Source: Membranipora membranacea | Lineage: Eukaryota; Bryozoa; Gymnolaemata; Cheilostomatida; Membraniporidae | DNA: 64,000 nt | Reading direction: 5' to 3' | Assembly: GCA_914767715.1 (NCBI GenBank) | Contig: OU612075.1 | Span: forward strand, 11,158,001 to 11,222,000 | Shown here: piece by piece, positions 3,101-46,286 of the stretch | Layout: the number at the start of each line of letters is the position of its first letter | Numbering within the stretch: the first letter of the stretch is position 1 | Program-made: the position numbers and the translations under genes | The notes under the pieces: model-generated | The model's database searches: none | The model's input: the letters and a program-made list of their open reading frames with translations, nothing else | Told to the model about the DNA's origin: nothing

Positions 3101-6100
3101 CAATACAATAGTGAATGTGATTTATTTAGTAGGCGGGTTAATTTTACAATGATGGGTTGCCAATGGATAATGATAAATGGATCAAAAGGGAACAATTTTA
3201 TTTATTTTCATTATTGTTTAACAATTTAGGGGCAAGAAACATTACTAAAGTGGGAGTTAGCAAGTTCATTTATAGATGGCATATTGAGAGCAATTAATGA
3301 TTCTTTGTAAATGAACCCTAGATGGATGATTGGAGATGGTTTCTGGATTGATTTGAGTCTTTGATTACATTTTTCTGATACCAGAGTACATGCGGCTGCT
3401 CTTGAGAGCTACTTACATTGCTGTTATCATTTACAAAGAATAACTGTAATATTCATACCTTAGAAGAACTGGGGGCATTTAGGACACCAGCCATTATTTT
3501 TCTCGCAACAAAACAGAGCAATCAAGCAACTTCTGATTTTTATGTTTATGCACTTTTCAATAGAAGTCTGTTCAAATATCCGATTGTATTGCACTGAATG
3601 AGGGTTTGCGTAAGTTGACACAACAAATAGGCTTTTGACAGCCTAACGTCACACCCAAAGGTTGCTGCAGCCTGTATTTGAGAAGTTGCAAAACTCAAGA
3701 GTAGAAGGTGGCTCAGTTGGTTAGAGCGCCATTCCTTTAACATGTAAATAATGAGGGTCGTGGGTCCGAATCCCACTGCAGTCCATTGACTACTGGGGTT
3801 TGGTTGGCCCCCTGGTGTGCTCCGACCTGCCTGCAAACAGAGAGAAACCTGGCGCAGATATAGCAGCCTAGCCACTAAGGCACTAATATTTTGCCGCTCA
3901 TGCTTCGGGATGTTGCATGTGATGTTTTTATTATCAAGAAACTACCTTAACACAAACTTACCCCTGCTTTTATCCAGCCATGGACTCCCTGTTTATTCAG
4001 AACAATATTTTTTCTTGTTTTGAACCACTGCGATATATCCTGAGTACCACATTTCCGCACTCCCAGTAGATAAAAATCCTCAAAGCATTTGAGCGCAGCT
4101 CTGTAAAGGAAATGAAAAAAAATTTAATTTATATATACTTTTATTGGCAATCAAAGTCATCTCATTCGAAATGTTTCGCACTCAGTGCCAGAAAAAAATA
4201 TTTCTAAAACAAAAATAGAGAAACAGAAAGGAAATAATATCATCAATGATGTTGGTCAAGTCGATAATATATGTCATATAACATGATCATATATGTCATA
4301 AACTTAGTCAAATTTATTCAATTTTAGTTATTTTTACCCAGTTTTAGTTTATTTTTGCCAACTTTAGTAGATTTGAGTTAATTTGAGTCAATTGATAATT
4401 GATAATCGACTGCCAAGATCCTTTTCCGCTAGCTAGTTAAGATGGATTTTAGTTATGTAATCAGTTGGAGAAAATGCAAGCTCATGAATTTCCCTGTTTG
4501 TGGCATGTGCAGGGAAGGCAAACTTTCTCTTCCACAAGTCCCGTATCCATCTTAGGTAACTGAATAGTAGCCGGTATGCTTCCGCTGACCACAATATAGA
4601 AATATCAGCATATGATGATTCAGCTCAGGGGTAGGTTCCTATTGCGTCTTATCAATTTGTGTAAATGTTTAGGTTCAAGCGATAGTGTAGTGTCAACCAT
4701 TACAAATGTGACTTACTTTCCGGCTGCGATATCTGCTGCTGTTGGCGGTTCGCTGCATGTTTCATCTTTTCTACACTGCCCCCAGCAGTGTGACGTGTAT
4801 TCCGGTAAGTATTTTGGCTTTGCACAGTGAGAAAGATCGCGGTATAATACTTTTATTGGCTGACGTGTCGACTTGTAGGAAACTGTGTTAATAGAGTTTG
4901 TCTGCTCTGACTGCTAAAATATAAAAAGGATACTGCTGATGAGAAACCCATTTTATTACGATATTTATTTATTCTCTGAAGTTTTCTCAAAGTCTATAAT
5001 TGAAATAAATTAAAAATTACTTCCTGGCCTCGCACACATTAACATATTAGTCCAATTAACATATTAGTCCAATCAACATATTTAGTCTAATAATCGAATC
5101 ATGTATATTATGTATTCCAATTACAAACTAATTATAACTTGAATCATGAAGAATACTTTTAAAACTGGTTTCAGTTGATCATCATCAGTATTAGTCTAAG
5201 TGCTCAGAAGGCTGCAATGCGACTACTTTGCATTGCAGCCGTTTGAGCACTTTGACAACACAAAGTAAAGAGTCAAACCGATATCACTGCATAATAGAGC
5301 AATACTATGCTGATCAACTGGAAGAACACACCTAGAAGTCAGAGCCCTAGTGAGTGAGACAGAATACTCGGTACTTACTTTCAGACTGAGCACTTCCTTC
5401 TCCAAACCTAACTTTGCTAAAGTCTCTTTGGCGAGCCGGCTTTGTAAATCTTCCTTAGCCTTAGATTCTTCTTGTAGTCTCATTTCTAACTTGAGCGTCT
5501 CCTCAACAGTATTGCCATTGTTGCTGTTGCTGCTTTGTTGCTGTAGAAGCCCCTTCGTCTCCTCGAATTGTATACGAACTGACTCAAACTGCTTTTCAAG
5601 ATATTGCGCTTCGATGCGTGAATCCTGGAAAAGTAATGTAGGCAAAATAACCATTATACAGGGAATTATAATTACCAAACACTTTTTTTACATTTTTTAA
5701 AACTTTGTTGGCATGTATTTCATTCGATAAGACTGCTTTTCAAAGTCAGCCAACAAGAAAAAAGGAAAAACACTCGATCAAGATGAGAAAAAGATCATCA
5801 GAAAAATAATGTTAGAAGGATTTATGCTTGATGCTTTATCTTAAATTGAACCCTAATATTGTAAAAAGGAGGTGCTATAATGTTATCACAAAAGATATTT
5901 GAAGTTGGATGTAGCTTTTTACATCTTAAATTTAAAATTCTGGAAAAAAGTTAGAGGCAAACTTTATCTGAAATGGATCAACTCTGGAGCAGTGAAAGTT
6001 TTACAATCTGCCTTGGGCTCTGACAAAAATCAGTGTTTGGTATTAGGGTTAGGAGTAGGAACTCAAACGTCTAGGAGTAAAACCCAAGTTTCTGAGTTGC

Positions 6101-6490: not shown

Positions 6491-7141
6491 TCCTTAATAA
6501 TATATAAGTTGTTGATGGTTTATGTTATTAGCTTTGATATAAGTCTCTCAAGATATTGTGGCAGTCTACTGATGTCGGTGATACTAGTTTGATTTCAACA
6601 AAATATATATAAGTTATATTGGATCATTATGTAGTTGAATCATAATGCTATTTGTGATTTTATCACGAATAGCATAATGACTAAGAACACAAATTCAGCT
6701 TTTTCTGGCATTTCATGATTATAGTAAACAAATAATATTGTTACCTATAATTATGGATATATAATTCATGCATTATATATCAATGCCTCTCATCATGGTG
6801 AACATGATTACAGCATTTATAGCTATTATGATTACAGCGATTAAGGCGCCCCTAGTATGCATCTGCACGCTTTTCGGGCTCTCTAAGTTTTACCAATTTT
6901 ACCAAGTTCATGTATCATCTGATATAAAAAGAATTGAGCATTGCAGTTCACTCGCTACTATATAATTTGTCTTTACGGGCTCATAATGAATCTGTTGTCA
7001 AACACAGGACCAAGCGTGGTAATCGTGCGGGAATTGCTCTAAGTACACCAAATTACATCATTGATATGAATTTATGGATTAGTGCTAAAATACGTGGTAT
7101 GGTTATTTGAGGATAAATTACATCAGTAGGCCTATATAACT
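6491..7141. other. Intergenic, no gene seen
   Basis: AT-rich spacer upstream of gene A. It contains GATTACAGC-type short repeats (about 6800-6840) and no supportable coding or RNA gene. Confidence 0.6.
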
Positions 7142-17052: not shown

Positions 17053-20000
17053 ATGGGAACACAATGGAATAAGGCCGTGGCGGCCCTCTTGATTATTTTT
17101 ATTTCTTTGGTATTGGTTATGGAGATAAAAAGAAGTAAAATCCCATATGGGACATCTGATTTTGCTGAGGATAAAGAAGAAAGGATAAGGTCTTACTCCC
17201 CACAACAGGTAGGTAACTTTTATCAATCATCATCAATCAAATTGATGTCGTTTAATTGATCGTTTGTCATTGTTTCTGATTATTGTGGGGTTTTGTACTG
17301 GTAATGGTCTCAGAAGGGGAAATATAAATTTACATGGCTCAAACAATCTTCAAAACATTGCTGCATAATCTGAAAGATTGATATGCAATTCAAATCAGAA
17401 CTTTGGGTATTACTCTTTGACGTTTGAGGTTGTTCTTATTTAACCTACGCTAGACCCTAACACCGAACACTGAACATGCCATGATAGTCCTAGCCAAAGG
17501 CCATAGCAGATTCGAAAAATTTCATTGCTGCATAGTTGATCTATCCCACATAGGGTTTGCCTCTAACTTTTTCTAGAATCTTATTTTAGGAAACATTTAA
17601 ATAGCTATATCTAACTTCAAATAACTTTTTCGATAATATATTATAGCATCTACTCTTAACAATATTACCATTTATTTTAAGACCAGACATCAAGCATAAA
17701 TCCTTCAAACATCATTTTTCTTTGTCCTTTTTTTTCATCTTGATTGAGTATTGCTGTTTGCTAAGAAACAGAAGATTGGGCTGCCCCTAAAGAGGGACGC
17801 AAGGTGCCCTTATCCTCATACTGAGAATGTGATACATCCTAGAAAACTGGAATGCATCCTAGAGGTGAGGCCATAGAGGACCTCCTAATTATAAGTGTGC
17901 AGCGAGCTGCCAAAACTGAACTGGCACTAATCGGCCATTGGCAGTGACACTTTGATTTTAGCCAATAGGCCGAGAAGCGATTGAGTATTTTCCCCTTTCT
18001 TTTTGATGGCTGATTTTAAAAAAACATTCTTAACGAAGGAAAGACATGCCAATTAAGTCCAAAAAAGTGTGAAATGGAACAATTATTCAGACGCCCTGTC
18101 TAAAACTCCTATCAGGTGGTGTGTTAAGCGGAGGTGAAATGGTTATTTTGCATATTTTAATTTTCCAGGAATCAGGCATCGACGCTCAATATCTTGAAAA
18201 GCAGTTTGCATCTGTTCGAATACAACTAGAGGAGACAAAAGCACTTTTACAAAAACAGAGCAGTGACATCAACAACGGCAATAATGTTGAGGAGACGCTC
18301 AAGTTAGAAATGAGACTACAAGAAGAATCTAAGGCTAAGGAAGATTTACAAAGTCGGCTCGCCAAAGAGACTTTGGCCAAGTTAGGTTTGGAGAAGCAAA
18401 TGCACAGCCTGAGAGTAAGTACCAAGTATTCTGTCTCTGGCTGATTCATGAGGGCTCTGACTTCTAGGTACGTTCTTCTGGTTGATCAGCATACTGCTCT
18501 ATTCTGCATTGAAGTCTATCGGTCTGATTATTTACTTGGTCGTAGGCTAAGTGCACAGACGGCTGCAATGTAAGTTAGTCGCATTGCAACCGTAAATATT
18601 TCAGTTTAAGGCTCTAGTTTAGAAGGTGTATAATAATTAAAACTTAACTCTTGGCAATCAAAGACCCTGTTTTTTTAAATTTTGGTTGATTGCTGTGATC
18701 TGAACCAAAATATGCTATCATCAACCCACACAATGCTCGTTCTGGCAACAAATTACGTCAGTGTCACTCAGTGTAGGCAGGGTGTCAATTCTAAAAAATT
18801 TCACTCACTGACTTTTTAGGGATGAGCATAATGATCAGGCACAGCCCGATCCACACGCCGTAGGCGTGGCGGGGAGGGTGTGGGAGGGGCGCATAAGCGC
18901 CCTCCCACCACAGAAATTTTTGTATATCGGTAGCAAAATAGAGCAAGCAGAGAGGTATTTCAATAGCTCACTGAGCTGTTGGGTACTTTCAGAAAACAAC
19001 TCAATAGCAGTAGAAGATTACGGTAAAAATGCTCCAGTTATAAAGCACCCATTTGAAAAAAAACTGCCCTCAATGGGATTCGAACCCACAACAATCTTGT
19101 TACCAGTGAGTAAAAGGCAGACGCTCTACACACTGAGCTATTCAGCCGTACACGGCAATCTGTGGGCCGTGAGTGGTAATATACGCCACTGAGTGTAGGT
19201 TGTAATGTTTGGTTTCAAATTTCAATTCAGTTTAAAAAGTGACCTAATTGTGTTAAGTCATTGGTCCTTTTTGTTAATATCAAAGCAATACTTAACAAAG
19301 AAGGAAAGGAATAACATTCCTTGCCAGGACATTTGTGAGTGCTACATCAATACCATAAGATAGAATCTAGAGTATGCTGTTTAGCTTGTGGTTAAAAACC
19401 AAAGGCATTATTTAGTCTACTTTCATTGAGTTATTGTTCCATACACAATTTTTTGTTACAATGATACAATGGATACACATTACATGTACATGTAAGCATG
19501 TAAGCATGTAAGCATAGTGCCAGCATCAATAAGATGCATACATAAGATAGAATAGATAAGATAGATACATAAGATAGCCAGCATACATAAGATAGAATCT
19601 AGAGTATGCTGTTTAGCTTTGGGTTAAAAACCAAAGGCACTATTTAGTCTACTTTCATTGAGTTATTGTTCCATACACAATATTTTGTTACAATGATACA
19701 ATGGATACACATAACATGTACATGTAAGCATGTAAGCATGTAAGCATAGTGCCAGCATCAAATGCTAATTGGTCTCTAGAACATTGTAAGGTTTTTTCAG
19801 TCATCACAATCAAAGGCAAATCAGATATTCTATTCATACCAAAAACAAATAATGAGCAAAATTGCTTCACATCCTGGGAACGGGCACTCTTTTGTTCTGG
19901 TAATTTGAGATTTACCCCTTCAATCACCATATACAAAGGAAGGGTGTTATTTGAGTAGATGTGAACGTTATGAGGTAGTGGAAATGAAGTATGGCTTATA

Positions 20001-23000
20001 TAATATCAAAGTCAAACTAAGCTCAAAGGATCCAGCTTGTAATTTACGTATATAAAACAACTTGACAGCATATCTGTTGTTGCCTACCTCAATGAACAAA
20101 GTAGGCAACAACTTGCAAATTCATTGCTGTAAAACTGGGTGATTCTTGTTGGTTTTGGAGTTGGTATGTCCACTGCATTATTCTCTTCTCATCCATCATA
20201 ATATACATGAGATATCACTTGTGCGGTCAGTCTCAGCATTTTTGTGCAACTGAGATTTGGCCTTGGCGCAACAAACTCACTTTTATGTCGATCAAAAAAA
20301 CTTTTATTGACGGTGCAAGATCCACACCATAATCCCCCCAGACCAAAAACGAACAGCCAACGCCCTTAAAGTGTTGTCAGGAGGGTATAGTCTCCATAGA
20401 TGTATCTCTCAACACGGAAATGCACCTCTTCTCTCCCGTTTGATCGTTTAGTGGCATTACATTGTCAAACACTGGAATTGAGTATTTGATAATGTAAAGC
20501 CACTACATTGTATCCTGTTGAAGATCGGCGCTGAAACCAGTTTCAAATTTTTTTCTTCATGATTCAAGTGGTGATTAGTTAATTAAAATAAGTTGTAAGT
20601 GGAATACATATTAAACATGTTGTGATTAATAGTTTTATCGGACATTATGTTAATTGTATATTAGCTATATATGTGTGAGATCATCAAGTTATTTGTATTT
20701 CACTTTAATTATAAACTTTTAGAAAATCTCAGTCAATAAATAAATAAATAAATAGTGTATTTTGTAATAATAAAGTTTCTCATCAGCAGCATCCTTTTTA
20801 TATTTTAGCAGTCAGAGCAGACAAAATCTATTAACACAGTTTCCCACCAGTCGACACCTCAGCCAATAAAAGTATTATACCGCGACCTTACTCACTGTGC
20901 AAAGCCAATATACTTACCAGAATATGCTTCACACTGCTGGGGACAGTGCAGAAAAGATGAATCATGTAGCGTGCCACCAACAGCTGCAGATATCGCTGCC
21001 GGAAAGTAAGTCGCATTTTTACCGATTGTCTTCAACGCTATCGCTTGAACCTTAGCATTTACACAAATTGATAAGAGGCAAAGGAACCCAACCCAGGGTT
21101 GACTCGCCCAAGCTGATATCTCTATATTGTGGTCAGCGGAAGCGTGCCAGAATACTATTTTAATTTCCCCAATGATCACCAAGAGGTTAGAGGATTTATA
21201 CCTAAGATCGAATCGGGATTGGTTGGTGGGAAAGTTAAAAGTGAAATTCATGCTTAGCTAACATTTCTCAAACACAATACATAAATCCAAACCTCAGCTA
21301 GCAAGTGAAAAAGGATCTGCCAAGTAAAGTAAATGACAAATGCTATGGGATGCACTAATATGATTTAACTCAAATTGATCGAAATTGACTAAAATTGAGT
21401 AAAAATGACTGAAATTGACCACAATTATTGGCTAAAATAAATTGAAATTCACCAAACTTGGTGAAAAACGAGTAGAAATCATTCAAATTTGACTCAAACT
21501 GACTAAATATATATAATTATATCAATTTCAGCACCAATTAAGACAAAATCTCTTTTAATTCGACACTTTTACAGAGCTGCGCTTAAGTGCCCTGAGGATT
21601 TTTATGGACTGGGAGTGCGCAAATGTGGTACTCTAGCTGGCAAAAGAAGGATCTTGGCAGTCATTATTATCAATGGACTCAATGCAACCAAAATTGGCAA
21701 ATATTAACTAAAGCTGGGTAAAAATATCTAAATTTGACCAAATTTGACTATAATACCGTTTTTTTATCATTTCCCTTTTTAGAGCTGCGCTAAAGTGCTT
21801 TGAGGATTTTTATCTACTGGGAGTGCGGAAATGTGGTACTCAGGATATATCGCAGTGGTTCAAAACAAGAAAAAATATTGTTCTGAATAAACAGGGGGCT
21901 CATGGCTGGATAAAAGCAGGGGTAAGTTTGTTTTAAGGTAGTTCAGGTTGATCAATATCAAGTGTCTCATCAAGGAGTTGTCTCTAACTCCTTGGTCTCA
22001 TCACATGCCACATTTCGAAGCATGGGCAGTGAAATATTTGTGGCTAGGCCGCAATATCTGTGCCAGGTTGCTCTCTGTCTATAGGCAGGCAAATTTAGCA
22101 ACTTTTTGGATATCTTCTGCAGCTTTGGGATGTAGCGTATTGTTGTCAGAAGCCTATTTTTATTTGGTTTGTCAACTTAGGCAAACCCAAATACAGTACA
22201 GTACAACCTGAGATTCGAGCAGACTTCTATTGAAAAGTACATGATAATATAAATCAGAAGTTGATATATTTCTCTGTTTCATTGCAAGAAAACTAGTGGC
22301 TGGTGTCTCAAATACCCCCGGTTCTCTCAAATGCATGAATATTACTGTTATTCTGTTCAAACGATAACAGCAATGTACGTAACTCTCCCAACAGCAATAT
22401 GTACTCTAGTATCTCAAAAGTGTAGCTCAACCCCTCTCCCTCCCCCTCTCCATCCCCCTCTCCCTCTCCCTCTCCCTCCCCCTCTCCCTCTCCCTCTCCC
22501 TCCCCCTCTCCCTCTCCCTCCTCCTCTCCCTCCCCCTCTCCCTCCCCCTCTCCCTCCCCTCTCCCTCCCCCTCTCCCTCCCCTCTCCCTCCCCCTCTCCC
22601 TCCCCCTCTCCCTCCCCCCCTCTCCCTCCCCCTCTCCCTCCCCCTCTCCCTCCCCCTCTCCCTCCCCCTCACCCTCCCCCTCTCCCTCCCCTCTCTCTCC
22701 CCCTCTCCCTCCCCTCTCCCTCCCCCTCTCCCTCCCCCTCTCCCTCCCCCTCTCCCTCCCTCCCTCTTCCCCGTCTCGTAACAGCAATTGCGAATTACAA
22801 GTGTAAAAGACTTTGTTTGCTAGACCATTTATGGTATCAAACCTATGATAACCAGAACGATGCTTCAGTATCTCAGAAGTGTAGCCCCACCCCTCTCCCC
22901 CCTCCCTTTCCCATGTAACATGCAACCACACTTGTAATTCACAAGTGTGGTTGTATGTTTTTGCAGACTTTCTGCTAGACTATTTTTGATAAAAATGATA

Positions 23001-30399: not shown

Positions 30400-33300
30400 A
30401 TGATCACTCGTTGGAGTAATGGCAAAACCACATTTATGGGTGTGGTAATAGCAGCGACGCTGCTATTGGGTTTTATGATATCCACCAACCGAATTAACCC
30501 TCAGAAAATGCTTACTCTGGAGAAATCTAACTATGCTTCAAAGGTTAGTAAGTTTTACAATTATGTTTCAAGCATTCTGTCGTCTTGGTCTCCACTGGTC
30601 AACGTGCATTAAGATGTCTATATGGCAAAACTGCATGCAGTAACTGTATGCCGTTCTGACTTGGTACTTAGTACAAACTGTGGTAGGTAGTAGTGTGCTC
30701 TGGTAGTAGTTTGCACCAGAGCTCTGAACCTGGGAGGATCCAACATTTGAGTTCTGCTGAGACCTTGGCGTGTATTGGAAATTCGAAGGTGCAAAATGGT
30801 TGTGCATAAACTTAGGGCGGGGTTCGGGGGCTCTGTAAGCCTCCCAATAATGTCCGGCCAAAGAAGCCAAGAGAGCATTCAGAGCTCTGGAGATTAATTC
30901 CATTGGCTTTTAGGGTGACAATTTTAGTCTATATTTATAAACAGCTAGTTCACCAACAAAAACTCAACTGTAAATTGTGGTATTCCCCAATTCAGATGAA
31001 TATAGGTAAATTCGCGCCCTTGGTATCTATATTAAATAATCATTAATCATAATCATTTTCATGGGGAAATCCAACTGAATCCAACTTGAATTCAAGTTGT
31101 CTCCCTATTACCAATGAGGAGAAGTTTCATGTCAATATCATTGAAAAACCGTATACCTAATCATATAATCTATTCAGTTGGATTTCCCCATGAAAATGAT
31201 TATGATTAATGATTATTTAATATAGATACCAAGGGCGGCGAATTTACCTTATGAGGCAAAATCTGAGTTTTTAGCTCATATTCTGAAATCCCCTGAGTTG
31301 AACCTAGCCTGGGCAGGCTGTTGGGGCTAGGTGGGTTGGGGACCCCCCAACCTGCCACCACCCAGGCCCAGCCCCAATAGCCTCTCAGGCTAAATTAAAC
31401 CCATAAACCTGAGTAACTTGGGCTAAATCTGAGTGATTGAGAACCATGGTAGTGTGCACTGATAGTAGTGTGCACTGGTGCTAGGCTGCCGACATTCATT
31501 CTAAAGATTATTTTCAACATAACTGTTACCATCGCTGATATAGAGCCCATGGTCAGAGTCGATGGCCATCTCTGTTTGTAAGTTCGGGCCCATAACCTGC
31601 ATGCTTGTTTCCACATTTGAGTTATTGCCCATTTGTTCAGCTGCCAGTCTAGGTAGTCAATTTTAAAGCAAGCACCAATTGTTGGGATGTCAATTCAAGC
31701 TGTCGTTAGTGAATTTTAGAGACAGTGCTGTGTCATTCGGATTAAGTTAGGTTACTCAATTCAGGGATAATTCAATAACATCATAGCTGAGAGAATGCTT
31801 CATATGTGTGAGATAATCATTACAAAAAGTCATGTCAGACTGAAAAAAAATCTTAATATTTTCAATCCGTGCCCATGATTGAGAGCAAATACTGCGCTCT
31901 GATTGGTCAATTTTTATGAATGCAAGCTCCACCTCTCCCACCCTCGCTCTCCCACCCTCCCTGCTCAATTGTCAAATACCAATTACAATCTACATTTTAG
32001 AATAACTTTCTTCTGTACTAAACAGGAGTTCTTGAGATTATATGTGGTGGTAATTATTGTTACCTATAATCATGATGAAACTGATTACAGGCAACAATTA
32101 CCTATAATTAACTATCGAACAGAAATGAGGCCTATATTCTGTGCAGACAGGTTTCCGGACTAAATTGGTCAAAATCATTATTTAGTGCAACTCAGAAATC
32201 AGATTGCAGCTGGAGAGGAACACCAGAGTATCAACATTTTTTAATCTTTCTCCGATGTCCATTTCACTGTGACAAAAGCTGTTGGTTATAATGATAATAC
32301 CTGTTTGGTCTGTGGGTAGTCTTTTTAAAGTGTATTATTCCCGCATTTAAAATGGTCAGAATTGAGCAGTGAATCTCATCAGCCAGCTTAAAATGTGACG
32401 CACCTGACGAAACTACAACCATTAATAATTTATGATAACATTTAAGGCTCATAACCTAGAGCAAGTTTGATCCGATTGCCTGCATTCCAGTCACTCCCCT
32501 TCCGCGGTGTGACCAGTGGATCGGGAGCAGTTCCCAATGCAGGCAAACGGACTCATAACTACTCATAACCATACACAGCGACCGACAGCAGGTTTAATCC
32601 TATCACAAATCAGCTTGGTCCCCTTTTTTTGTAAAAAGTAGTTGTATGACAATGCTAAGTCGCACCATCAATATATAATGATTTGTAGAGCAGCAAATTG
32701 TGATAGATTCAGTGGTATGCTTTCATCATAAAGCTGTTTCGATGGTAGCTCATGTAGAATGAGGGCAAATTTTCCTTCAGACATTATTCAAGTGGAGAAG
32801 TGTCTTGCATGAATTGAATATCACCTTCAATCTGATCTAATCGTTCGTTAACTTTCTAGGCGGTGCAGTCAAAGTTTATGGCTAACATGAGGGCACCCGC
32901 ACGACCCATGACTATAACTTACAGAGATCTGTCTCATTGTGAGAGGCCTGTATACCTTCCCGAATATAATGCTCACTGTTGGGGCCAGTGTAAACCAGAA
33001 AAGACATGTAGTAGACCGCCCACAGCTGAAGACATATCTGCTAAAAGGTGAGGTAGAGCTTTGCATTATGGGAAGGAAAATTAAAAACATTCAAGTCTTC
33101 GCTATGCAATTAATTAAAATTCTCATTCAATAGCTTGTGTTCTTGTAATGAAAAGTAGTATCATATTTGGAATAGAGTTGAACATGATTGATCTTAGCTT
33201 TGTCACACAGCTAATTTTTTGGTTTTGGGGGTGACAAATCAAAACAAATAAAAATAAGCAGCTGAGTGGCAAGACTAATTTGCTAGCTTAGGTCGCTTCA

Positions 33301-36300
33301 GTTCTACTGATAGACATGCTGTTGGGTTAAAGGGGAGCAACTCTAAACGCAAGGAAACTTGTAATGGAGCTGAAAACTCGCTAGCTGTCTCTCTCTTATA
33401 TAACCCAATGTTTCATTATCGCCCAATCTTTCACCACTTCACTCAACTCGATTCTTTCCAGGGCGTTCCAAACTAAGGGAGCCAACAGCACACATACCTG
33501 AGTGCCTGTGCTACTTTCTGTAGAGGCAGTATACTTCACTATTGACCATCATATTTTCGGTCTTAACTCTTTGACAGTTAGATGAAAAGTTTTCAAAACT
33601 TCGCCCCAGCTTGGCCAATGACCTCTCTCAGTTCATGGGGTAGTGCACCACATATTATTTAGCTAGGCTATTTTGAACCACAGTTGATAATAATTTCGTT
33701 GCTGACAGGTTCACTGTGACAACTATTAGTTTTTGAATAGTGAATAGGATAAATTTTTAGGCAGTGAGATTGCTAGGCTTTGAAAGGACAGTTATTCATT
33801 GGTGAGGTCACCGACTAGTCCAAATGGGTCGACACTGAGAGACCCCTACGGCAGGGCTCTCAACCACTCAGGTTTAGCCCGAGTTACTATTTTTACAAAC
33901 ATCATATTTTAACATCATGGAGATTCATTTTCACCTGTGGCGATGAAGCCTTGTCACGTGGTCCTGTGGCCGCGGGACAAGGCTAGTGGCGACGGCCTTG
34001 GTTAGTCCATATGAATTGGTTCATCTGGATCAAATCTAAAATTATTTACGATTTTATGTTTACAAGAAATGCTCTAGGTTTTTATTGATTTACTTGCTAT
34101 CACAAACATGAAATGTTGCGAGAAAAGGATACATATATACTTTGTCAATAAAGGAGCTTGCTACTAGAGTATGGAACTTGCATTTGAGGGCATCGCTCTA
34201 GAAAATTGTGTATGATGTGATTCTCATCAGCAAAACAGCACAATAATATCGAGGTCGCCTACGTCAAACCTCAAATTCTTGGCAACATTAAAAACCTTTC
34301 TTAGTTTTTTCTTGTCTATGGTACATATGCTCGTGTGCAAAACAGGCAGACAATACATCAAGAGGGAAACTACAAAACTTTTGAACATCATGAAAGCTAA
34401 TGGCTTTGAACTTAGATGCAACATTTTTTTAACAACATACATTCTTTGACTTGCTTTGACAGCTATTCTTTGCACATAATCTTCAAATCTCAGGTGTTTC
34501 ACACGACAATATTTCGGTGCCATCTCAGACGTACCCTCAGCTGTTTATGCTCAGGGCGTTTTACACCTTTAAAATACCAATATGTGACATGCTAATATCA
34601 AAACTCAGGTTTCGAATCCTCTCAGGTTGAGAGCCCTGCCCTACGGGATATCTTCACAGAGTAAGGATATCCTGTAGGGGTCACAGTTTCAATCCATTTG
34701 AAACAGTTGGTGGCCGTGAACACTTTAACCTGGAACTGTAATTGTAAGAGATGCAATAAAAATATTTTGTTTTTCTGTTTAGAGCCTGGCTGAAATGTTT
34801 TGAAAATTTCTACATAATGGGTATAAGAAAATGTGGCACACAGGATATCACAAACTGGTTTAGAGGCAGAAGTGATATGGTAGCAAACAAGCAGGGAGAA
34901 AAAGGCAAAATTATGGGAAGCGTAAGTTATCATTGACGGAGGAGATAATGCTTTCTTAAATGTTATCATTCTATGTATTTCTTTTCTTTGTTAAAATTAC
35001 AAGTTCTATATAAGTTACTGTAATAACGCACACTGACATCAAGATTACACTATTAACATGTTTATCTCTGATCGTAAGAGTCAATTTAGCAGCAGTACCT
35101 AACATGTACCAACTACTCATAAATAAAATTGAACATGGGTTGTCACACCAAATGCCTTGTGATGGTACTCATGCTAAGTGAATTAATTCACTCTCTATCG
35201 ATCAGAGATATACATGCAACAGTATATCACGTGATCAGTGTGGTAATGACGATATGCATGATACAATTATCCATGCAAATCCTCCATGAAAAGTGTCCGA
35301 TGATATTTATTTTATATCATTTTTTATTATTTTTAGGACTACCGTTCTACTGCTGATATGTGTCCCAAGGACTATTTTGGCAGGGGCTTTCCTAACAACT
35401 CAAACTTGAGCAGGACTGACATGCTATATCATGATGGACCAGGTAGTGATATTCAAATTTTCATCTTAAATGTGTATATATATATATAAAAATAATGTTT
35501 AATTGTATATGTATTTAAACAACTAGAACCAGATCAGGTCTATAAGTTAGTAATAAGTTTACTTGAGGTCTTCCCACACTTATAGAACAGGTCGGAGTTG
35601 CATGACAGTAGACTCTTTATTCTTAATGCTGAGAAAGCCGTAGTGACAGTTGGTCCAAAGATGGGTTCAATCTGGTAACGAGGATGGTACAAAATGAGTA
35701 AACTTGTCAAAGACTTGACGGCTGGTGTCTATTGAGTACCAGCTTTGTTAGTTATTAGTCATTAAAAAACGGGGAGATACTGGGAGGTCATTTAAAAACT
35801 GCCAAAATCAGATCGGTCTATGCTGAGGGATAGAGACCTGCTATAAAACTCCTTCCTAACGCATTCTGTAGCTGACTGAACTCTGAACATTCTGTGTTAA
35901 CAATCTGGGACCTTTGTCCTACATGGGAGATTAAAGTAGTGATAGTTGTGAGCGACGTGCAAGCGATGATATGGTTAAAAATAATTGAAAGACCCTCCTT
36001 GACCTTGTCTGAGCCCTCCATACTCTTGCCCCTGTCCGACCTTGACCTGGAGCATGAACTGGTCACAGACAAAACTGTGTCAAGACAGTGTCGTCAAGGA
36101 GTTTCTTTAACTTCTTAATTACACTGTGTAATTGAGGGCCAGGTCCAAAGCATCGTCAGTCATTTATATTGTATAGCTAACCATTCTATTCTGGCCATCT
36201 GTAATACATTGTGGCCTGAATGCCATCATTGATTTACCTTTGATGGAACCTTAAAGTGTGTGGCAGATGTCTGGTAAAAGAATAAATTAAAATAAATTTG

Positions 36301-39300
36301 ATTGTTAAGGGTTGTACTCTCATGGTTAGATGATGGACAACTACCAACAGTCATCTGTTGTTTATTTTCACAGGTATACTTTTGATGCGAGCAGTAACTT
36401 CACAGAATTCAACACATATGGAAGTGACACCCGCCACACAGCTTCTTGGCTTCATGGCATCTCCAAAGACAAAATTCCATATACAGCTACGCCAACCCAC
36501 AGAGAGGTGACCATTCCATATCATGTCCATTCTCCTTAGAATAATATTTAAAATAATCTATTAGGGCCGTAGTTGTTAAGATATGGTAGGGGAGGAAAAA
36601 TCCTTCAAAGCCTGATGTTGCACCAGCCTCAAAGATTTTTAGGTATATAAATAGTAGATTGAAGTCCCAAATGAGCCGATACTGACACGGAATATTCAGC
36701 GATTGCATTTTTAGACCGCTCGATTTAGTATTCTAGGAAAGGCATTGCCACCCTGCCTCCCCTAGAATGACGGGCCTGTCTATTGACAACAATAACCCAA
36801 TGAACTCTCTGAGACTAAGAGGCAAATGAGTTCATTGAACTACCTGCTGTTTGATAAACCCTAGATATTACCTTAATCTTCAAGATGAGTTGCATGCTGC
36901 ATAGTATAAAATAATTATACTTTTGCAACAGTCAGAGTACTATGTGTTGGCTCTGAGCTGATTGGTAGCACACTGATTTCGAGATTACACTATTAGTATG
37001 TGTATCTCTGATCGATAGAGCTTCTGTCGCAAATATTGAGTACCTACATTTGGCTAAAAAAGAGGACAACTTTAATTTTATCAAACAGACATGATCGAAA
37101 CAGATTTTCCTAGCTCTGCATTATTAGTTCTCTCTTCTGAGCTTAGGCTAGCAATACACAGTTTCGATGTCACTTTTCTTGTCAATAACATGTATTAAAT
37201 GCTCTTCTAAAACTGTTAGAAGGTGATATCAGATTTTCTGAATATAAATTAGAATATTTTAACAAAGAATGAGAAAATGATAAGTGTATATCCAAAAGTT
37301 TGGGTAATCATCCATACGTCTCCTAAATACTGAATTTCAGCTGCACTCAAGCTAAGTGAATTAATTCACTCTCTATCGATCAGAGATATACATGCAATAG
37401 TATATCACGTGATCAGTGTGGATTGGTAGTTGGGTGGGAAAATGAGCCAATGCCCGGTCAGTGAAATTACCTATTGGGATATATTGAAAGTGAAACTGTA
37501 TTACTTTCACATTGACTATATATCAATAAATACCATCTGAGCTGGCATTGGCTCTCTCCCTCCCACCAACCAATCAGAGCCCAAACATTGGCTACACAGT
37601 CAAAGTACAGAAATATTAACTAGAAGCGATCGCACTCACCTAACAAATATTTCTAGCAATTAAATTAATATTGATACATCTACGACCAGACATCTGTACT
37701 GATGGTCATGTGACACCGATTTAATTGATGTCAACACATTTAGCATATGTCATAACCCCCTACCTTGCCTATAACCATGCAGCCTGATAAGAGCTATTCG
37801 ACCAGTCACTTCCTGGTGATAGGAGTTATACTGTATTTCAGGGTTGTGTGGCAACAAAACCATCGGTGTCATAAATGTCGGCATTATTGCTGTAACCCAC
37901 TTTATTCTGGTTTTTAACTATACCACATGAAAAGATTTTACGATAGAATGATTGTCTAAATCATTATCAACCAACAGCCATGCCATAGGTGTTGAAATAC
38001 ACCATAATCTTTGTATAACTTTCAGAGCGATATCTTATCTGTATGAATGGAAAAAGAGAGGAAGAATATATAGGAATGTCACACATGAGCAGTTCGACTC
38101 AGAGTTCACAGAATATTTACTTCTTGGTCTTCTAGAAGAGATGAAACACTGTATAGAGACTTACGGAGAGTTGGGCTGTCTGTATAGAACACAAGGCCTA
38201 GACGGTGTTATGCCAGTAAGTTATTATATTATGGCCAAATAATATTGTTATATTATTATTATATTTTTATTATGAGTATGATTATTACTATATTATTGTA
38301 GTATTATGTTGTTGTGTTGTTGAATTATTATATCATAGTTGTTTAATATTATAGCCAAAGAGTTGGTAATGGCTAGGTTGGGTAGGTGACTGAGCCAACG
38401 CTAGTTCAGATAGTACCACCATGTTATGATGAAAGAGAAACTGGTTCATTTTCAATTTCAAGCTGTCACTATATCTCAGTAGGTACTTTGACATGGCCTT
38501 ACCCCTCCCCCGACCAAGATAATCAAATAAAAACCAGCACATTGGCCAATTCCAATACTTTTAATGCATAATTTGTATGAAAACATTATTCATATTAAGC
38601 ATTTAAAGGTTTTATATTTTTTAACCATGACATATAATGTGTGCGGTTGGTAATTCTGCTCCTTATATAGGCTTTAAAGCGTACAAATATGCAGTATAGA
38701 ATACCATTATCTTGCCATCTTCAGCAGCTGAATGCCGAAATAGTAAATATAGATCTCAACTTTATCCGAAACCTCTCGGCAACTGGATAATTTTTAAATT
38801 TTCTCATAAAACACATAGCAAAGGAACAATTTCATTGAAAATTTAAAAGTTGAATATATATGTTTAATTTTATGAAGAAGTTACCCATCTTATTTTCATG
38901 TTACACCACAAAATGAAGTTGTAAGAGGGTTTGTATCATATTGCTTTATACTTAGTATGAGTTAACCCTAAGTCATCTCTTCCGAGTAAGAGTAATCTGG
39001 TCCTTGATTTTGAAAGCATAACTCCTATACATAACAGATTTCAGTCTGTTCGCAACAAGGAGTTTTTTGTCTCGAACTGCCTGATAGCAGTGTGGTGCAC
39101 TTCACTGTTACCCTGATAAGCTTAAACCACTGCTGACAAAGCTGGGCTTTGCCCAGCAAAGCCAGCAGTCAAAAATTTAAATAGATAGTTGTGGCATCAA
39201 AACATCTAGCCAGTAGCTTTGAATGGAGTTATATGAGCTCTCAAAATGTAGGGAGTATCTTCTTCCCCAGCCATCCACCATTAGTGATGACAAACGTTGT

Positions 39301-40283
39301 TGTTGACCAATCAGGTGCCTTTAAAATCTAGCTGAGATCCAACATTTGTATTAGTGTTCTGATTTGTTTTAGAACTTGTTGAAGCACAGCTTGTACGTAC
39401 TTTATATTGAGGAAGCATTTAAATTTATACCACGCGAGCAGATTGTTGTGACGAGAACCGAAGACTATGCAAAATCAGAGGTAAGTCAACCTTGCCACTG
39501 AGCTGGCTCTAATTGACTCTTGATGGAAGAGAGCCAAGCCAGGTTGGATAGTGCATATAGTTAAAGTGACAGAAGATTCACTTTCACAGTATCTCAATAT
39601 GTACTTTCGTTGACATGGCATTGGTTCTCTACCTCGCACCTTTCGGTCAATCAGAGTCAACATATTGGTTGAAACACACCCTGACTTCAAAATAATTCTA
39701 CTATTGACATATGTGAAATCTTGTACCAGCGCAATCTTCTCCCCATCCCAGTCTCCCTGCTCAGACTAATACTACCAATTCACTCTGCGCCCAACTTGTA
39801 CCCACCCTAAATCAGTGCAGTTAATCTTGGTCAGGTAAATCAATCAAGGATGCTCAGGCTTTCATGATTTTATTCCATGTAAGTTGATACATCAGTGATG
39901 TTAGTATATATAGCACAGTATTTGTTCACCTATCAGATGAGATTACATTCTGCCTGCTTTGGATTTGGAATTTTCTCCTCAATAACGACATGTTGCGTAT
40001 ACTGTAGCACTGACTACTCTGAAAAGTATTTGAAAAGCACCTCAACAAGAATGTTGTTTACTACTTTTTACAGGAAAAGGTCATGCGAGAAGTGATGGGT
40101 GTTTTTGGAGTGGAATATCCAACGGGTAATAAAAATACTGATATTAGTGTTAGAAACCAAGTCAACAAAGGAAAGAAGAATCCTGTTAGCGAAAAAGTAC
40201 ACAAAGCGTTGGATAGTTTCTTTCACCCTTATAACGAGAGGCTCGCAAATCTACTCAATGATGAAAAGTGGCTTTGGCAATAA
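30400..40283 (+). CDS. CHST15-like: Gene C: CHST15-like carbohydrate sulfotransferase, 8 exons, 405 aa, no stem exon
   Basis: Exons: 30400-30543, 32860-33047, 34783-34921, 35337-35442, 36374-36506, 38026-38215, 39373-39480 and 40074-40283 (TAA). Phases close (1218 nt). Exon 1 gives a short tail and signal anchor (TTFMGVVIAATLLLGFMI, residues about 10-27); exon 2 carries HCERPVYLPEYNAHCWGQC; residues 124-130 GIRKCGT are the PAPS loop; RQPTERAISY is the 3'-phosphate motif, split by an intron as in gene B. It ends FFHPYNERLANLLNDEKWLWQ. It lacks the 82-aa coiled-coil exon of A and B, and none is visible in the 2.3-kb first intron. Sequons NST and NVT are present. The stop codon overlaps an AATAAA hexamer (40280-40285). 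Predicted Golgi sulfotransferase; substrate unknown. Confidence 0.92.
31001..31252. mobile_element. Foldback MITE with about 75-bp inverted arms
   Basis: The left arm GGTAAATTCGCGCCCTTGGT..TTTTCATGGGGAAATCCAAC is mirrored by GTTGGATTTCCCCATGAAAA..ACCAAGGGCGGCGAATTTACC. The arms differ at only a few bases, so it is young. It lies in gene C intron 1. Confidence 0.85.
31260..31450 (-). mobile_element. hAT end fragment (CAGGGCTCTCAACC family)
   Basis: The reverse strand reads GGTTCTCAATCACTCAGATT..CTCAGGGGATTTCAGAATAT..CTAAAAACTCAGATTTTGC, matching the left end of the element at 14112. It is interrupted by a GC-rich palindrome (about 31303-31385, GGTTGGGG..CCCCAACC). Confidence 0.65.
33852..34638. 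mobile_element. hAT-like element with LINE RT tail as cargo, copy 2
   Basis: Starts CAGGGCTCTCAACCACTCAG and ends GGTTGAGAGCCCTG, with exact 8-bp CCCTACGG on both sides (33844-33851, 34639-34646). Inside, minus strand 34523-34227, is the same RT-thumb segment as copy 1 (VKASQRMYVVKKMLHLSSK..). It is shorter than copy 1 by an internal deletion of about 0.4 kb near the left end. It lies in gene C intron 2. Confidence 0.9.
33946..33985. mobile_element. 40-bp micro-hairpin insertion, AAGCCTT family
   Basis: Arms GCCTTGTC and GACAAGGC, flanked by GTGGCGATG (33937-33945) and GTGGCGACG (33986-33994). The sister hAT copy has one uninterrupted GTGGCGACG at 14622-14630, which is the empty site. The insertion therefore happened inside this hAT copy. 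Confidence 0.8.
35029..35242. mobile_element. MULE-like MITE, copy 1
   Basis: Long inverted ends: CACACTGACATCAAGATTAC.. through TCTCTGATCG, mirrored by CGATCAGAGATATACATG..GTGATCAGTGTG. Flanks are GTAATAACG and GTAATGACG (9 bp, one mismatch). Interior palindrome AAGTGAATTAATTCACTC. It lies in gene C intron 3. Confidence 0.8.
36563..36778. mobile_element. MITE, CAGGSCCGTAGTT family, copy 3
   Basis: AGGGCCGTAGTTG at the left, ATGACGGGCCTG at the right; TCTATT repeats on both sides. The same insertion is found in unit 2 (43570-43786), so it predates the tandem duplication. Confidence 0.8.
36943..37592. mobile_element. MITE of GTTGGCTCTGATTGG family, split by a MULE-like insertion
   Basis: Outer ends GTGTTGGCTCTGAGCTGATT and AATCAGAGCCCAAACATTGG are inverted. 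The body has the palindromic theme TATTGAGATATAGTGAAAGT..ACTTTCA. Unit 2 has the uninterrupted element (44301-44505). Confidence 0.75.
36969..37420. mobile_element. MULE-like MITE, copy 2, nested
   Basis: Same CACACTGAT..ATCAGTGTG ends as 35029-35242, flanked by exact 9-bp GATTGGTAG (36960-36968, 37421-37429). It is inserted into the MITE at 36943-37592 and absent from unit 2, so it arrived after the C/D tandem duplication. Confidence 0.9.
38352..38546. mobile_element. MITE, GTTGGCTCTGATTGG family
   Basis: Degenerate copy in gene C intron 7, ending CAGCACATTGGCC, with the body words CTATATCTCAGTAGGTACTT. Confidence 0.6.
39503..39672. mobile_element. MITE, GTTGGCTCTGATTGG family
   Basis: Starts GCTGGCTCTAATTGACTC, ends CAATCAGAGTCAACATATTGG, body CAGTATCTCAATATGTACTT. 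The duplicate is at 46113-46286 in unit 2. Confidence 0.7.
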
Positions 40284-40301
40284 AACAAGCCAATGTTTCT
40301 G

Positions 40302-40466
40302 CTCTTTTCTGATTGGCTCTTGTGTGGGAGGAGAGAAGAAAGCCTATACATCAGATTGTTCTTTTCTGCTGAAAGTATCTATTGAGACATAGTGAGTGTG
40401 AAACTTTCACTAAATCTAATAGGTTCTTTCAGTGTATTGCCTCACTCCACCTAGCCAATTAGATAA
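40302..40466. mobile_element. MITE, GTTGGCTCTGATTGG family
   Basis: TTTCTGATTGGCTCTTGTGT..GTATCTATTGAGACATAGTG..CTAGCCAATTAGA, just downstream of the gene C stop. The duplicate is at about 47062-47215. Confidence 0.65.
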
Positions 40467-41492
40467 TAGCTAGTAAATTTGATCCAATTTACCTGCATTC
40501 CAGTTGCTCCCCTTCCACTAGTCACCAGTAGAGGGGAAGCAACTCCGAATGTAAGCAAAAGGACCAAACTTTTTCTAGATAATAGCCAACACATCGGCTG
40601 TGTAAGATGTATAGTACATGATATTGTGACTGTCTGCGTAGCCAAATTTTTGACTCTGACCGGCTGACATTTGACAATCACTTTTTCTATTGTTGGTAAC
40701 ACTCATGCTGACACACAAAACTTATTTTCTACTTCCGATGATCAAAGGGTCATCAACTCATAGTTTTGAGCCGATTCCAATTTAAGTTTCTGGATGTTAG
40801 TTAAGTTTTATTGGGTATAAAACGTGTTCTTCTTCTGGTTTCATTCTGTATAATATATGATAATAAGCTTTTCCTATACAATACTCATTGACGCAATTAT
40901 TTTGTTTTTCTGTACGAAAAAAGCTATTTGTTCGAGCTAACTTGGAAAATAGCATATAAACGGTGAACAAAAATTAAATGGTAACTAGAAAAAGTGTTGC
41001 AAGAAAAACAATAATAATAATAATAACAATAATAAACTAAACTAAAACAAAAGAAATACAACTTTGTTGTATTCCTAATAATTATGTTATGATTGAGAAA
41101 AGTTTTGGTTAAATTAGAATAAAATAAAGACTGGACCTACCATGCCAGCTTGCACGCCTCATAGTGAGAGTCTATTTTATATTGTCACCAAGAACTCACA
41201 ACCTAATGCCGATAAAATGTTCACAAACGGAGCCAACAGAACCCCTGAGCATCCCTTACAAAGCATGAACAGCGTGATTGGACGCACAAAACAACAACAG
41301 TAAACAACAGAGGTCGAAGGATAACAAGTGCTAAGCTCCATGCGTCCACAACTGCTGTTAGTTGTTCCTATGTATAGATGACTTTCTGCACCAATTCCTA
41401 AAACAGTGAAAGACTTTTTGAGAAATACTAATAATGAAAACTAATTTCATTGTTAGTCACACTGCTATCCATCAACTATTTGAGTTTGTTTG

Positions 41493-41625
41493 GCCCCCAA
41501 GTGTTCTCTAGACCTGCCCACAAACAGAGATCAATCTGGCACAGATATTGTGGCCTAGCACCTAAGGCAACTGATACTTTGAGGCCCATGCTATTAGGGA
41601 TGTTGCGTGTGATATGACCACCTGA
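41493..41625 (+). mobile_element. SINE body, headless
   Basis: GTTTGGCCCCCAAGTGTTC..GGCACAGATATTGTGGCC..GGGATGTTGCGTGTGAT, as in the SINE at 3705-3928. Duplicated in unit 2 at 48884-49008. Confidence 0.75.
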
Positions 41626-42201
41626 TTTTTAAATCAACCAGATGCTTACGAATACCTTTTGCATATTGTGATCAGGTTTCTGTTATCAGGTGTTTGCTGA
41701 ACATCAGATAAAATTCTATCAGTTGTTGGCTTAGCAGCATAAGGGTACATTTGTTGATCACAAGACGTCAAACACAACCACATACACTCAACTGGATATG
41801 TGATCAGACTTTAAATGAGAGGACCTCTGTTACCCACCTAAAATGCTAGGTTCGAAAGCTCTGAAAATCCCATTCTGTTGATTTGTTATTGATAAGATCT
41901 TGGACTTCCGTTCTAGTGCTGATATGTGTCCTAAGAACTACTTTGGTAGGGGCTTTCCTAACAACTCAAACTTGAGCAGGACAGACATGCTATATCATGA
42001 TGGACCAGGTAGTAATATTCAAATTTCATGTTAAATGTATATATATATACAAAATATTGTTCAATTTTATATATATATATTTAAACAACCAGACCAGGTC
42101 TGATCTGTAAGTTTGTAATTAGTTTAACTTGGGGTCTGCCCACACTTATTGAACGGGTCAGAGTTGCATGACAGTAAGCTCTTCATTCTTAATGCTGAGA
42201 G

Positions 42202-42225
42202 CAAGGATTTCTCTTGAAATCCTTG
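42202..42225. mobile_element. 24-bp micro-hairpin insertion, CAAGG family
   Basis: Arms CAAGGATTTC and GAAATCCTTG around TCTT, flanked by exact 7-bp CTGAGAG (42195-42201, 42226-42232). Unit 1 has a single CTGAGAA at about 35629, the empty site. Confidence 0.85.
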
Positions 42226-43249
42226 CTGAGAGGGCAGTAGTGGCTGGGACTGGAAGAGCTGTAGTGAAAGGTGGTCCAAAGATGGGTTCAATTCGGTAAC
42301 GAGGATGGTACAAACTAAGTAAACTTGTCAAAGACTTGAGGGCATTGATTATATTCATGGATTAGGGGAATATATCTGATCCTGAACAAGCACATGGCAA
42401 TTTATGCATCATGGCTGGAAACAATTTCTTATCTTTGATTGGTCCAAAAGTTCAGTAACGCTACAGCTAACCCCTCGTAAACATTTTTCAAATAGCTTGT
42501 CTGTGTTTCTCAAGGCTGTCACTGAGATGTCAGTCAATGCATAACGCTAAAGCTGCCAGAATTGCAGCTAGATCAAAATTTTATATACTGATTAAATTTC
42601 TCCACAAATAGCGATACTGAGAATTTTACCACTGATCCATGAATTCATAATATTATTAATGCTTGACGGCTCTAATCTATTGAGTACCAGTTTCTTAGTT
42701 AGTAGTCATTAACAAACGAGGAGATACTGGGAGGTCTTTCATTTCAAAAATTGCCAAAATCAGAATTGTCATTACTGAGGGAGAGAGACCTACTATAAAA
42801 CTCTTTCTTCACGCTCTCTGTTGCTGACTGAACTCAGAACATTCTGTGTCAACAACCTTTTGCCTGCTTGAGGGATCAAAGTAGTGATAGTTGTGAGCGA
42901 AGTGCAAGCGATGATATGATTAAACATAATTGAAATACCCTCCTTGACCTTGTCTGAGCCCTCCATACTCTTGCCCACGTCCGACCTTGACCTGGAACCT
43001 GAACTGGTCACAGACAAAACTGTGTCAAGACAGTGTAATCAAGGAGTTTTTTTAACTTCTTAATTACACTGTGTAATTGAGGGCCAGGTCCACAACTTTG
43101 CCAGACATTGATATTGTATGGCTAACCATTAAATCTCTGTAATACATTGTGGTCTGAATGTCATCATCGATTGAGCATTGACTGAACTTTAAAGTGTGTG
43201 GTAACATTCCCGATAGAAATTATATAAAGAAAAGAGAATGTACTCTCAT

Positions 43250-43324
43250 CAATGAACTAAACCAATTAGCAAATCAGCAGCCAGCTAAAATATGAGTTGT
43301 TCTTCATGGGGGTTTAGTTCATTG
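43250..43324. mobile_element. 75-bp MITE, CAATGAACTAAACC family
   Basis: Inverted ends CAATGAACTAAACC and GGTTTAGTTCATTG, flanked by CTCTCAT (43243-43249, 43325-43331). Unit 1 has one uninterrupted ACTCTCATGG at about 36317. Confidence 0.88.
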
Positions 43325-43569
43325 CTCTCATGGTTAGAAGGTAGACAACTACCAACAATAATCTGTTGTTTTTTCTCACAGGTATACTTTTGATGCGAGC
43401 AGTAACTTCACAGGATTCAACACATATGGAGGTGACACCGACCACACAACTTCTTGGCTTCATGGCATCTCCAAAGACAAAATTCCATATGAAGCTACGT
43501 CATCCCACAGAGAGGTGATATTCCATGTCATTTCATGTTTTTGTTAGAATAATATTGAAAATACGCTGT

Positions 43570-43786
43570 CAGGGCAGTAGTGTTTAAGATATGGTAGGGG
43601 AGGCAAAAATCCTTCGAAGCGTGATGTTGCACCAGCCTCCAAAGATTTTGAGGTATATAAATAGTAGATTGAAGTCCCAAAGAGCTGATACTGACATTGA
43701 TTATTCAACAATTGCATTTTAGACCACTCTATTTAACATTCTAGAGGAGGCGTTCCCTTCCTGCCTCCCCTAGAACGACGGGCCTG
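43570..43786. mobile_element. MITE, CAGGSCCGTAGTT family, copy 4
   Basis: Duplicate of the element at 36563-36778 within unit 2: CAGGGCAGTAGTGT..GAACGACGGGCCTG. Confidence 0.8.
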
Positions 43787-44300
43787 TCTATTGAAAACAA
43801 TAACCCAATTAACTCTCTGAACTGAGAGGAAAGGGAGTTCATTGGACAACCTGCTGTTTGCCAAACCCTAGGTATTACCTTAAATGGCAACCAGGGTTTC
43901 AAACAAGTTCTCTTTGGTTGATAGCGGATTGCACCTCATGCATAGGGAACAAGATTATGATTATTCAGTGAGAATTATTGTGAAACATTTCCTTCATCAG
44001 GTACTAAAACTAAAATAGAACCTCACAGAGCAGTTTCCTGTTTCTGTTATATTTAGTCTGTGCTCTACCATTATTACAGGGATGTCTTGGAACCTCCCCT
44101 AACCTGAAGTATTACTCAGCTAAGAGTCAGCAACCGCTTTGAGTTTTGCGCTGATTCATGCACAAAGCTTATGCTGTGGGGCATTTTCTTTTCTACCCAT
44201 TTATGCATTGCTGTGAAACTTTGTAGTCGTTTTAATCTTCACGATAATTTGCATGCTACATTGCATAAAACAATTAAACTTCCATTGCAGTCATAGGAAA

Positions 44301-44505
44301 ATGTGTTGACTCTGATCTGATTGGTCGTTGGATGGGAAAAAGAACCAATGTCAGATCAGTGAAAGTATCTATTGAGATATAGTGAAAGTGAAACTGTATT
44401 ACTTTCATATTGACTTTATATCAGTAGGTACTTTCAGGAAGTACCATCTGTCCAGAAATCGGCTCTCTCCCTCCAACCAGCCAATCAAAGCTAGCACATT
44501 GGCTA
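44301..44505. mobile_element. MITE, GTTGGCTCTGATTGG family, uninterrupted
   Basis: Counterpart of 36943-37592 without the nested MULE-like element. Ends ATGTGTTGACTCTGATCTGA and CCAATCAAAGCTAGCACATT. Confidence 0.75.
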
Positions 44506-44544
44506 CACAGTCAGAGGATAGCAATATCAACGAGAAGCGATCAT

Positions 44545-46112: not shown

Positions 46113-46286
46113 CTGTGCTGGCTCTAATTGACTCTTGATGGAAGAGAGCCAAGCCAGGTTGGATAATGCTTATAGTTACCGTGACAGAAGTTTCACTTTC
46201 ACAGTATCTCAATATGTACTTTCGTTGACATGGCATTGGTTCTCTACCTCGCACCTTTCGATCAATCAGAGTCAACATATTGGTTG
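46113..46286. mobile_element. MITE, GTTGGCTCTGATTGG family
   Basis: Unit 2 duplicate of 39503-39672, followed by a further partial copy at about 46398-46500 (GAGAGCCAATGACAGGTCGG). Confidence 0.65.

Follow-up and report, generated by a model that had tools for sequence, protein, structure and literature searches.

The window, by which we mean the whole 64-kb stretch of DNA that was analysed, looks eukaryotic and contains short open reading frames (ORFs), repeated exon copies, and reverse transcriptase ORFs. The repeated exons, recognised from their translations with no tool assignment, presumably represent copies of a sulfotransferase-like gene. When 14 ORFs were scanned for protein families, two matched reverse transcriptase and a third ORF gave a match below the curated cut-off. 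A protein assembled from four of the exon stretches has six relatives on contigs of 0.6–2.7 kb, which cover 33% of the query.

The window holds two diverged segmental duplications, both with repeated exons. The first is direct (35300–49300; 35.3–42 kb versus 41.9–49.3 kb, 89% identical where aligned), and the second is inverted (100–24030; 0.1–6.5 kb versus 17–24 kb, 84% identical). They serve as internal controls for empty sites. Further inserts and repeats in the window are the following:

1473–2474: insert of 986 bp whose inverted ends are CAGAGCTGTGCT and whose direct repeats are GTTAACTC (8 bp); it contains CAGGGAGTTGACAACTCCCTG at 2198–2218
19065–19147, minus strand: tRNA-family match, scoring 29.8 and thus just above the gathering score of 29
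22378–22794: GA-rich tandem array with repeats of about 12 bp
31015–31237: perfectly complementary 66-bp arms with 91 nt between them
33844–34646: insert of 787 bp between 8-bp direct repeats CCCTACGG, its inverted ends being CAGGGCTCTCAACC; we take it by its build to be hAT-like
36960–37429: insert of 452 bp whose inverted ends start with CACACTGAT (one mismatch in ten) and whose direct repeat is GATTGGTAG (9 bp); it is missing from the paralogue at 44232–44490

Palindromes between short direct repeats

Three 24-bp palindromes (p1, p2, and p3) lie between exact 7-bp direct repeats, with the letters and coordinates that an earlier note on this DNA had given:

21971–21994, plus strand: p1, 24-bp palindrome with arm CAAGGAGTTG, loop TCTC, and arm TAACTCCTTG; direct repeats GTCTCAT at 21964–21970 and 21995–22001 (whole 21964–22001)
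42202–42225, plus strand: p2, 24-bp palindrome with arm CAAGGATTTC, loop TCTT, and arm GAAATCCTTG; direct repeats CTGAGAG at 42195–42201 and 42226–42232 (whole 42195–42232)
58282–58305, minus strand: p3, 24-bp palindrome in the orientation opposite to p1; direct repeats GTCAGAT at 58275–58281 and 58306–58312 (whole 58275–58312)

When read in one orientation, p1, p2, and p3 share a common layout, in which two 10-bp arms enclose TCTC, TCTT, and TCTC, respectively. The reverse complement of p3 is CAAGGAGTTG-TCTC-CAGCTCCTTG and is identical to p1 at 22 of 24 bases, and p2 is identical to p1 at 19 of 24 bases. The two arm changes of p2 (positions 7 and 10) each have a matching change on the other side of the loop. 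All three CAAGGA units have a length of 24 bp and a TCTY loop across two tip variants (n = 3). The earlier note described such a unit as practically two terminal repeats fused together, which is an apt description. Of the pattern CAAGGA-N12-TCCTTG, the 64-kb window holds three copies, and 100 dinucleotide shuffles hold none.

Two further palindromes (36095 and 43040), which the same note regarded as degenerate relatives, do not belong to the family. Both are 23 bp long and lack a direct repeat. They are flanked by inverted 10-mers (8/10 and 10/10 matched) and are therefore part of a longer hairpin, which is found in both paralogous copies. The CAGGGAGTTGACAACTCCCTG palindrome at 2198–2218, which looks related in that it differs from the tip by 1 base, was likewise not counted as a member, because it has no direct repeat and lies inside the 986-bp insert with its own 8-bp duplication.

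The window was also scanned for palindromes inside direct repeats in a manner blind to the sequence of the insert. The scan required an exact 7- or 8-bp direct repeat, an insert of 16–100 bp, and 9-bp inverted ends with at most one mismatch. It returned seven units, whereas 40 fourth-order Markov sequences gave 0.125 on average and never more than 1. Besides the three 24-mers, the scan found units of 58, 75, and 30 bp and a doubtful 25-bp unit at 6648; a 31-bp palindrome represents an eighth, near-exact case:

6648–6672, plus strand: 25-bp imperfect palindrome, CTATTTGTGAT...ATCACGAATAG, with direct repeats CATAATG
43250–43324, plus strand: 75-bp unit whose terminal inverted repeats, CAATGAACTAAACC, are 14 bp long; flanked by 7-bp direct repeats CTCTCAT at 43243–43249 and 43325–43331
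47236–47265, plus strand: 30-bp palindrome, CATAGACCTACTA-ATAA-TAGTAGGTCTATG, with tips CATAGACC; 8-bp direct repeats GTTTGACC at 47228–47235 and 47266–47273
47308–47365, plus strand: 58-bp unit in which a TTTAG-repeat interior lies between the tips CAATGAACTAAACC and CAATGAACTAAATC; flanked by 7-bp direct repeats CTTCCAC at 47301–47307 and 47366–47372
57796–57826, plus strand: 31-bp palindrome with CATAGA tips; 8-bp repeats GTCATGTC and GTCATTTC, with one mismatch

Six of the seven scan units start with CA and end with TG, a feature that was absent from the scan criteria and that is distributed over three tip families. The 58-bp and 75-bp units have tips CAATGAACTAAA(C/T)C. All five CAAKGA-tipped units are surrounded by exact 7-bp repeats, exactness being a requirement of the scan and so not independent. 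The 30-bp unit can be read with equal symmetry as a 32-bp palindrome inside a 6-bp repeat. The unit at 6648 has neither CA...TG tips nor the target pattern described below, and CATTATG is found just upstream of it; its membership in the group is doubtful.

Displacing the direct repeat by 3, 5, or 7 bases recovered seven inner parts of known units and three unrelated cases, and displacement by 10 or 15 bases gave no matches in the same scan. The unrelated cases, one for each of three offsets, indicate that chance matches do happen.

Target pattern and empty paralogous sites

The 7-bp repeats of the five CAAKGA units (GTCTCAT, CTGAGAG, GTCAGAT, CTCTCAT, and CTTCCAC) all have T in the second and A in the next-to-last position. 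This nTnnnAn pattern was not a selection criterion, and its base rate in the window is 6271 of 63994 positions (0.098). Five of five matches are expected by chance with a probability of about 9e-6, and at least five among the six 7-bp units with a probability of about 5e-5. The pattern is not found in the repeat of the sixth 7-bp unit (CATAATG, at 6648) or in the 8-bp repeat GTTTGACC.

Empty sites were sought by joining both flanks of each unit and searching the window for the joined sequence. This in-window search identified junction-spanning empty paralogous sites for three sister units. The 58-bp unit is the cleanest case, with an empty site inside 40478–40680 and, in an unguided alignment, a 65-bp gap (58 + 7) that includes the 7-bp repeat. 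The empty site of the 30-bp unit lies inside 40320–40518 and appears as a 40-bp gap in the unguided alignment. For the 75-bp unit, the empty site lies inside 36157–36473, where the right flank aligns well and the left flank only weakly past about 4 bases; because of this weakly conserved left flank, the unit does not appear as one gap in the unguided alignment.

The 24-mers themselves have no clean empty site. The inverted paralogue of p1 (3826–4069) lacks the palindrome, one repeat, and about 6 adjoining bp, and the direct paralogue of p2 (35484–35722) lacks the palindrome, one repeat, and 24 further bp. Both are short of extra flank bases and therefore do not qualify as clean empty sites. 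No paralogue of p3 was found in the window. The 31-bp palindrome has an inverted paralogue near 59623 that is without the palindrome and some of the flank. An argument from age, in which duplicated target bases without differences are set against paralogues diverged by 11–16%, is not relied on, because the demand of the scan for exact repeats biases it.

Palindromes and direct repeats that coincide by chance are a very improbable explanation of these units. Short perfect hairpins without direct repeats are indeed common here: 18 with loops no longer than 10 and arms no shorter than 9 occur in the window, compared with 1–8 in five Markov sequences, and only 3 of the 18 carry a direct repeat. 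However, the number of units in the blind scan, the empty paralogous sites of three of them, and the target pattern all speak against a chance origin, and the shuffle and Markov controls reject it.

The earlier note saw in the 24-bp palindrome a transposable unit. Insertion with a 7-bp target duplication is borne out by the excess over chance, the nTnnnAn pattern, and the empty paralogous sites of the three sister units. It does not follow that the 24-bp unit transposes in its own right, since excision of P elements, as described in PMC2895639, gives the same build.

Origin of the 24-bp palindromes

We read the 24-bp palindromes as excision scars of P-superfamily-like DNA transposons; this is the most likely origin, and we place slightly more trust in it than doubt. 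A longer element with terminal inverted repeats CAAGGA(G/T)TT(G/C) would have inserted and duplicated 7 bp of its target; the ends of this parent element would be CAAGGAGTTGTCTC and CAAGGAGTTG. The transposase would later have cut several bases (about 10–14) inside each end, in the fashion of P transposase. The chromosome ends would thereby have kept the intact duplication and the 10–14-base tip of each terminal repeat, and end joining would have fused the tips head to head into the order duplication, tip, reversed tip, duplication. From its letters, the 24-mer can be read as 14 bases of one end plus 10 of the other. The 58-bp unit would be a scar of the same type in which repeated copies of its own tip serve as filler; the 30-bp unit would be the scar of a cousin element with an 8-bp duplication, and the 75-bp unit a small internally deleted element. 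The sequence itself shows that the three sister units inserted, and it shows the target pattern and the tip-like filler. For the 24-mers, we infer the insertion of a parent element, the class of the enzyme, and the excision step; insertion of a P-like parent with a 7-bp duplication is supported indirectly.

The model for this reading is the P element of Drosophila. After cutting by P transposase, the chromosome ends carry 3′ tails of 17 nt from the terminal repeats. In experiments, the target duplications stay intact through excision and the tips are fused head to head, in some cases with filler that was copied from them (PMC2895639). The paper's Table 1 gives 66 isolates (68 junctions according to the figure legend). 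By our count from this table, tip sequence flanked by both duplications is retained in 44 of the 66; among these, 36 show inverted arms of 9 bp or longer, with inserts of 25–44 bp (mode 30 bp, 14/36). Among the remaining 22 isolates of the table, three lost a duplication and 19 retain only 4–7 bases between the duplications; P excision thus also yields products other than palindromes.

The units described here resemble these scars in their intact duplications, in the near-perfect palindrome of fused tips, and perhaps in filler copied from the tips; the runs of TTA in the long filler of Table 2 of PMC2895639 resemble the TTTAG run of the 58-bp unit. P elements also begin with CA and end with TG (PMC2895639), as do six of the seven units here. 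In contrast, the P element has an 8-bp duplication, up to 17 nt left per end, and CATGATG tips, whereas the corresponding features here are 7 bp, about 10–14 nt, and CAAGGA, and all three inserts are 24 bp long.

Filler that resembles a tip is found in the 58-bp unit, where 6-mers from its own tips cover 27 of 32 interior bases, compared with a shuffled mean of 1.8. The signal is weaker when the 60-bp flanks are added at k = 5 (29 versus 21.1, 0.069 of shuffles), and the TTTAG run could also have originated by later slippage. The interior of the 75-bp unit shows no templating from its own tips.

This filler bears on a second origin, in which the palindromes would be deletion remnants of longer palindromic MITEs. 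Replication would have skipped the hairpin and left the outermost 10–14 bp inside the intact duplications, both of which a hairpin-mediated deletion would probably preserve as well as excision does. As the 75-bp unit shows, one short element in the window has 14-bp ends and a 7-bp duplication, and the window holds further MITE-like inserts with intact duplications. However, tip-like filler such as that of the 58-bp unit is seen more typically after break repair than after skipping, and skipping does not explain why two tip variants should both end at 24 bp. We consider this origin unlikely.

The constant length of 24 bp is also the weakest point of the excision-scar reading and the main support for a 24-mer that moves by itself. 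As two tip variants share one length and one loop, the reading has to suppose that one cut or junction was preferred. If lengths are drawn from the 36 long-armed fly P scars, three are equal with a chance of about 0.06 and two with a chance of about 0.20; over all 44 fly isolates, the values are 0.04 and 0.15. A single junction can exceed a third of the long-armed products in the fly data (Table 1 of PMC2895639).

A 24-bp unit that is mobile itself would be a nano-MITE, composed of two 10-bp tips with a 4-nt loop and mobilised in trans by a transposase that produces 7-bp duplications. Such a unit would explain the constant length better than scars do. The conserved TCTY loop, the near-identity of p1 and p3, the arm changes of p2 paired on both sides, the exact 7-bp repeats, and the target pattern are all consistent with it. 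On the other hand, 24 bp would probably have to accommodate two transposase subunits, the 64 kb contain just three copies and none has a clean empty site, and sister units of the same build differ in length and tips. To our knowledge, no unit as short as 24 bp transposes, which also counts against such an element. On this evidence, it is an improbable source of the palindromes. Its strongest form is a rather poor prospect: the 24-bp unit would be a self-sufficient transposase substrate and the smallest cut-and-paste element known, for which two 10-bp tips and a tetraloop are enough and whose palindrome is kept by paired arm changes. If the 24-mers did move by themselves, the lower size limit of DNA transposons would drop several fold. 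MITEs are defined by terminal inverted repeats, a target duplication of fixed length, and the lack of coding capacity. The 24-bp units have such repeats and such a duplication, but they are all tip with no interior and are only candidates for self-movement.

If the palindromes are instead excision scars, then palindromes between exact 7-bp repeats would form a fossil record of P-like excision, the elements themselves perhaps being gone. Duplication length, cut depth, and repair pathway could be read from them, and short hairpins would have been added to genes and introns.

A longer element with ends of the palindrome type, for which the earlier note had suggested a search, was not seen in the 64-kb window. 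The scan for an element with CAAGGAGTT or CAATGAACTAAACC ends (CA...TG ends, up to one mismatch in the 7-bp repeat, up to two mismatches in the 12-base ends, length up to 3 kb) is a limited test, which returned only three known units and missed p1 and p3 because their arms are short. No P or THAP domain was found in the 14 ORFs scanned, out of 100 stop-to-stop ORFs of at least 75 aa in the window. Exact matches were found neither for the 24-mer pattern of p1 and p3 in viral_contigs and genome_contigs nor for the CAATGAACTAAACC pair in viral_contigs; these collections consist of viruses and prokaryotes, so the absence of matches says little. The four tip strings do not occur in the literature text searched. 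The titles and abstract openings searched contain no description of palindromic scars or very short mobile palindromes, which is not proof of absence.

The terminal repeats of 1360, a member of the P group, have another sequence than the tips found here. Both 1360 and Galileo share a 7-bp nTnnnAn target with the units described here, whose targets are less palindromic. The duplication of 1360 is 7 bp with the target GTTNAAC, given earlier as KTNBWAB, and that of the P element is 8 bp with the target GTCCGGAC; among the fly families with terminal inverted repeats covered in PMC3276498, only 1360 has a 7-bp duplication. Galileo, of the P superfamily, has a 7-bp duplication with the target GTANTAC and, in contrast to the units here, long terminal repeats (PMC4168063). 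The window further differs from both systems in that no transposase was seen in it.

The zebrafish element Pdre2, with the tip CATACCTGTCAAC, 13-bp terminal repeats beginning with CATA, and an 8-bp duplication (PMC10983969), is similar to the 30-bp unit in its short CATA-starting repeats and its duplication length, and the sequences part after CATA. Like six of the seven units here, Pdre2 begins with CA and ends with TG, but it is a long element with its own transposase, and the duplication listed for it, AGGTGAAT, does not have T in second position and is off the target pattern (PMC10983969).

Among hAT elements, hobo has an 8-bp duplication with the target NTNNNNAN (PMC3276498), whereas the CAAKGA units have 7 bp. 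Families of hAT elements with 7-bp duplications may exist, as an example query of Repbase Update implies (PMC4455052). Excision of Ds, another hAT element, is described as leaving altered, hairpin-processed flanks without long tips (PMC1978519). The introner elements of Amoebophrya also combine inverted repeats (8–20 nt) with short direct repeats, but the latter are shorter (3–5 nt) and the elements are spliced introns (PMC7789003).

The p3 target at 58275

The region around p3 contains a second hairpin unit:

58313–58360, plus strand: 48-bp imperfect hairpin, TGGCCTTATCTC...GAGATAAGGCTA, with TGTCAGAT at 58274–58281 and 58361–58368

The palindrome p3 sits between this hairpin and its left TGTCAGAT. 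GTCAGAT occurs three times (58275, 58306, and 58362), and TGTCAGAT occurs at 58274 and 58361. From these repetitions, the 48-bp hairpin and the 24-mer appear to have used one target successively. The tip of the 48-bp hairpin is also found in a hairpin at 48201–48229, TAAGCCTTATCTTCGCCAAGATAAGGCTA, whose flanks GGTAAC and GGTTAC are one base apart.
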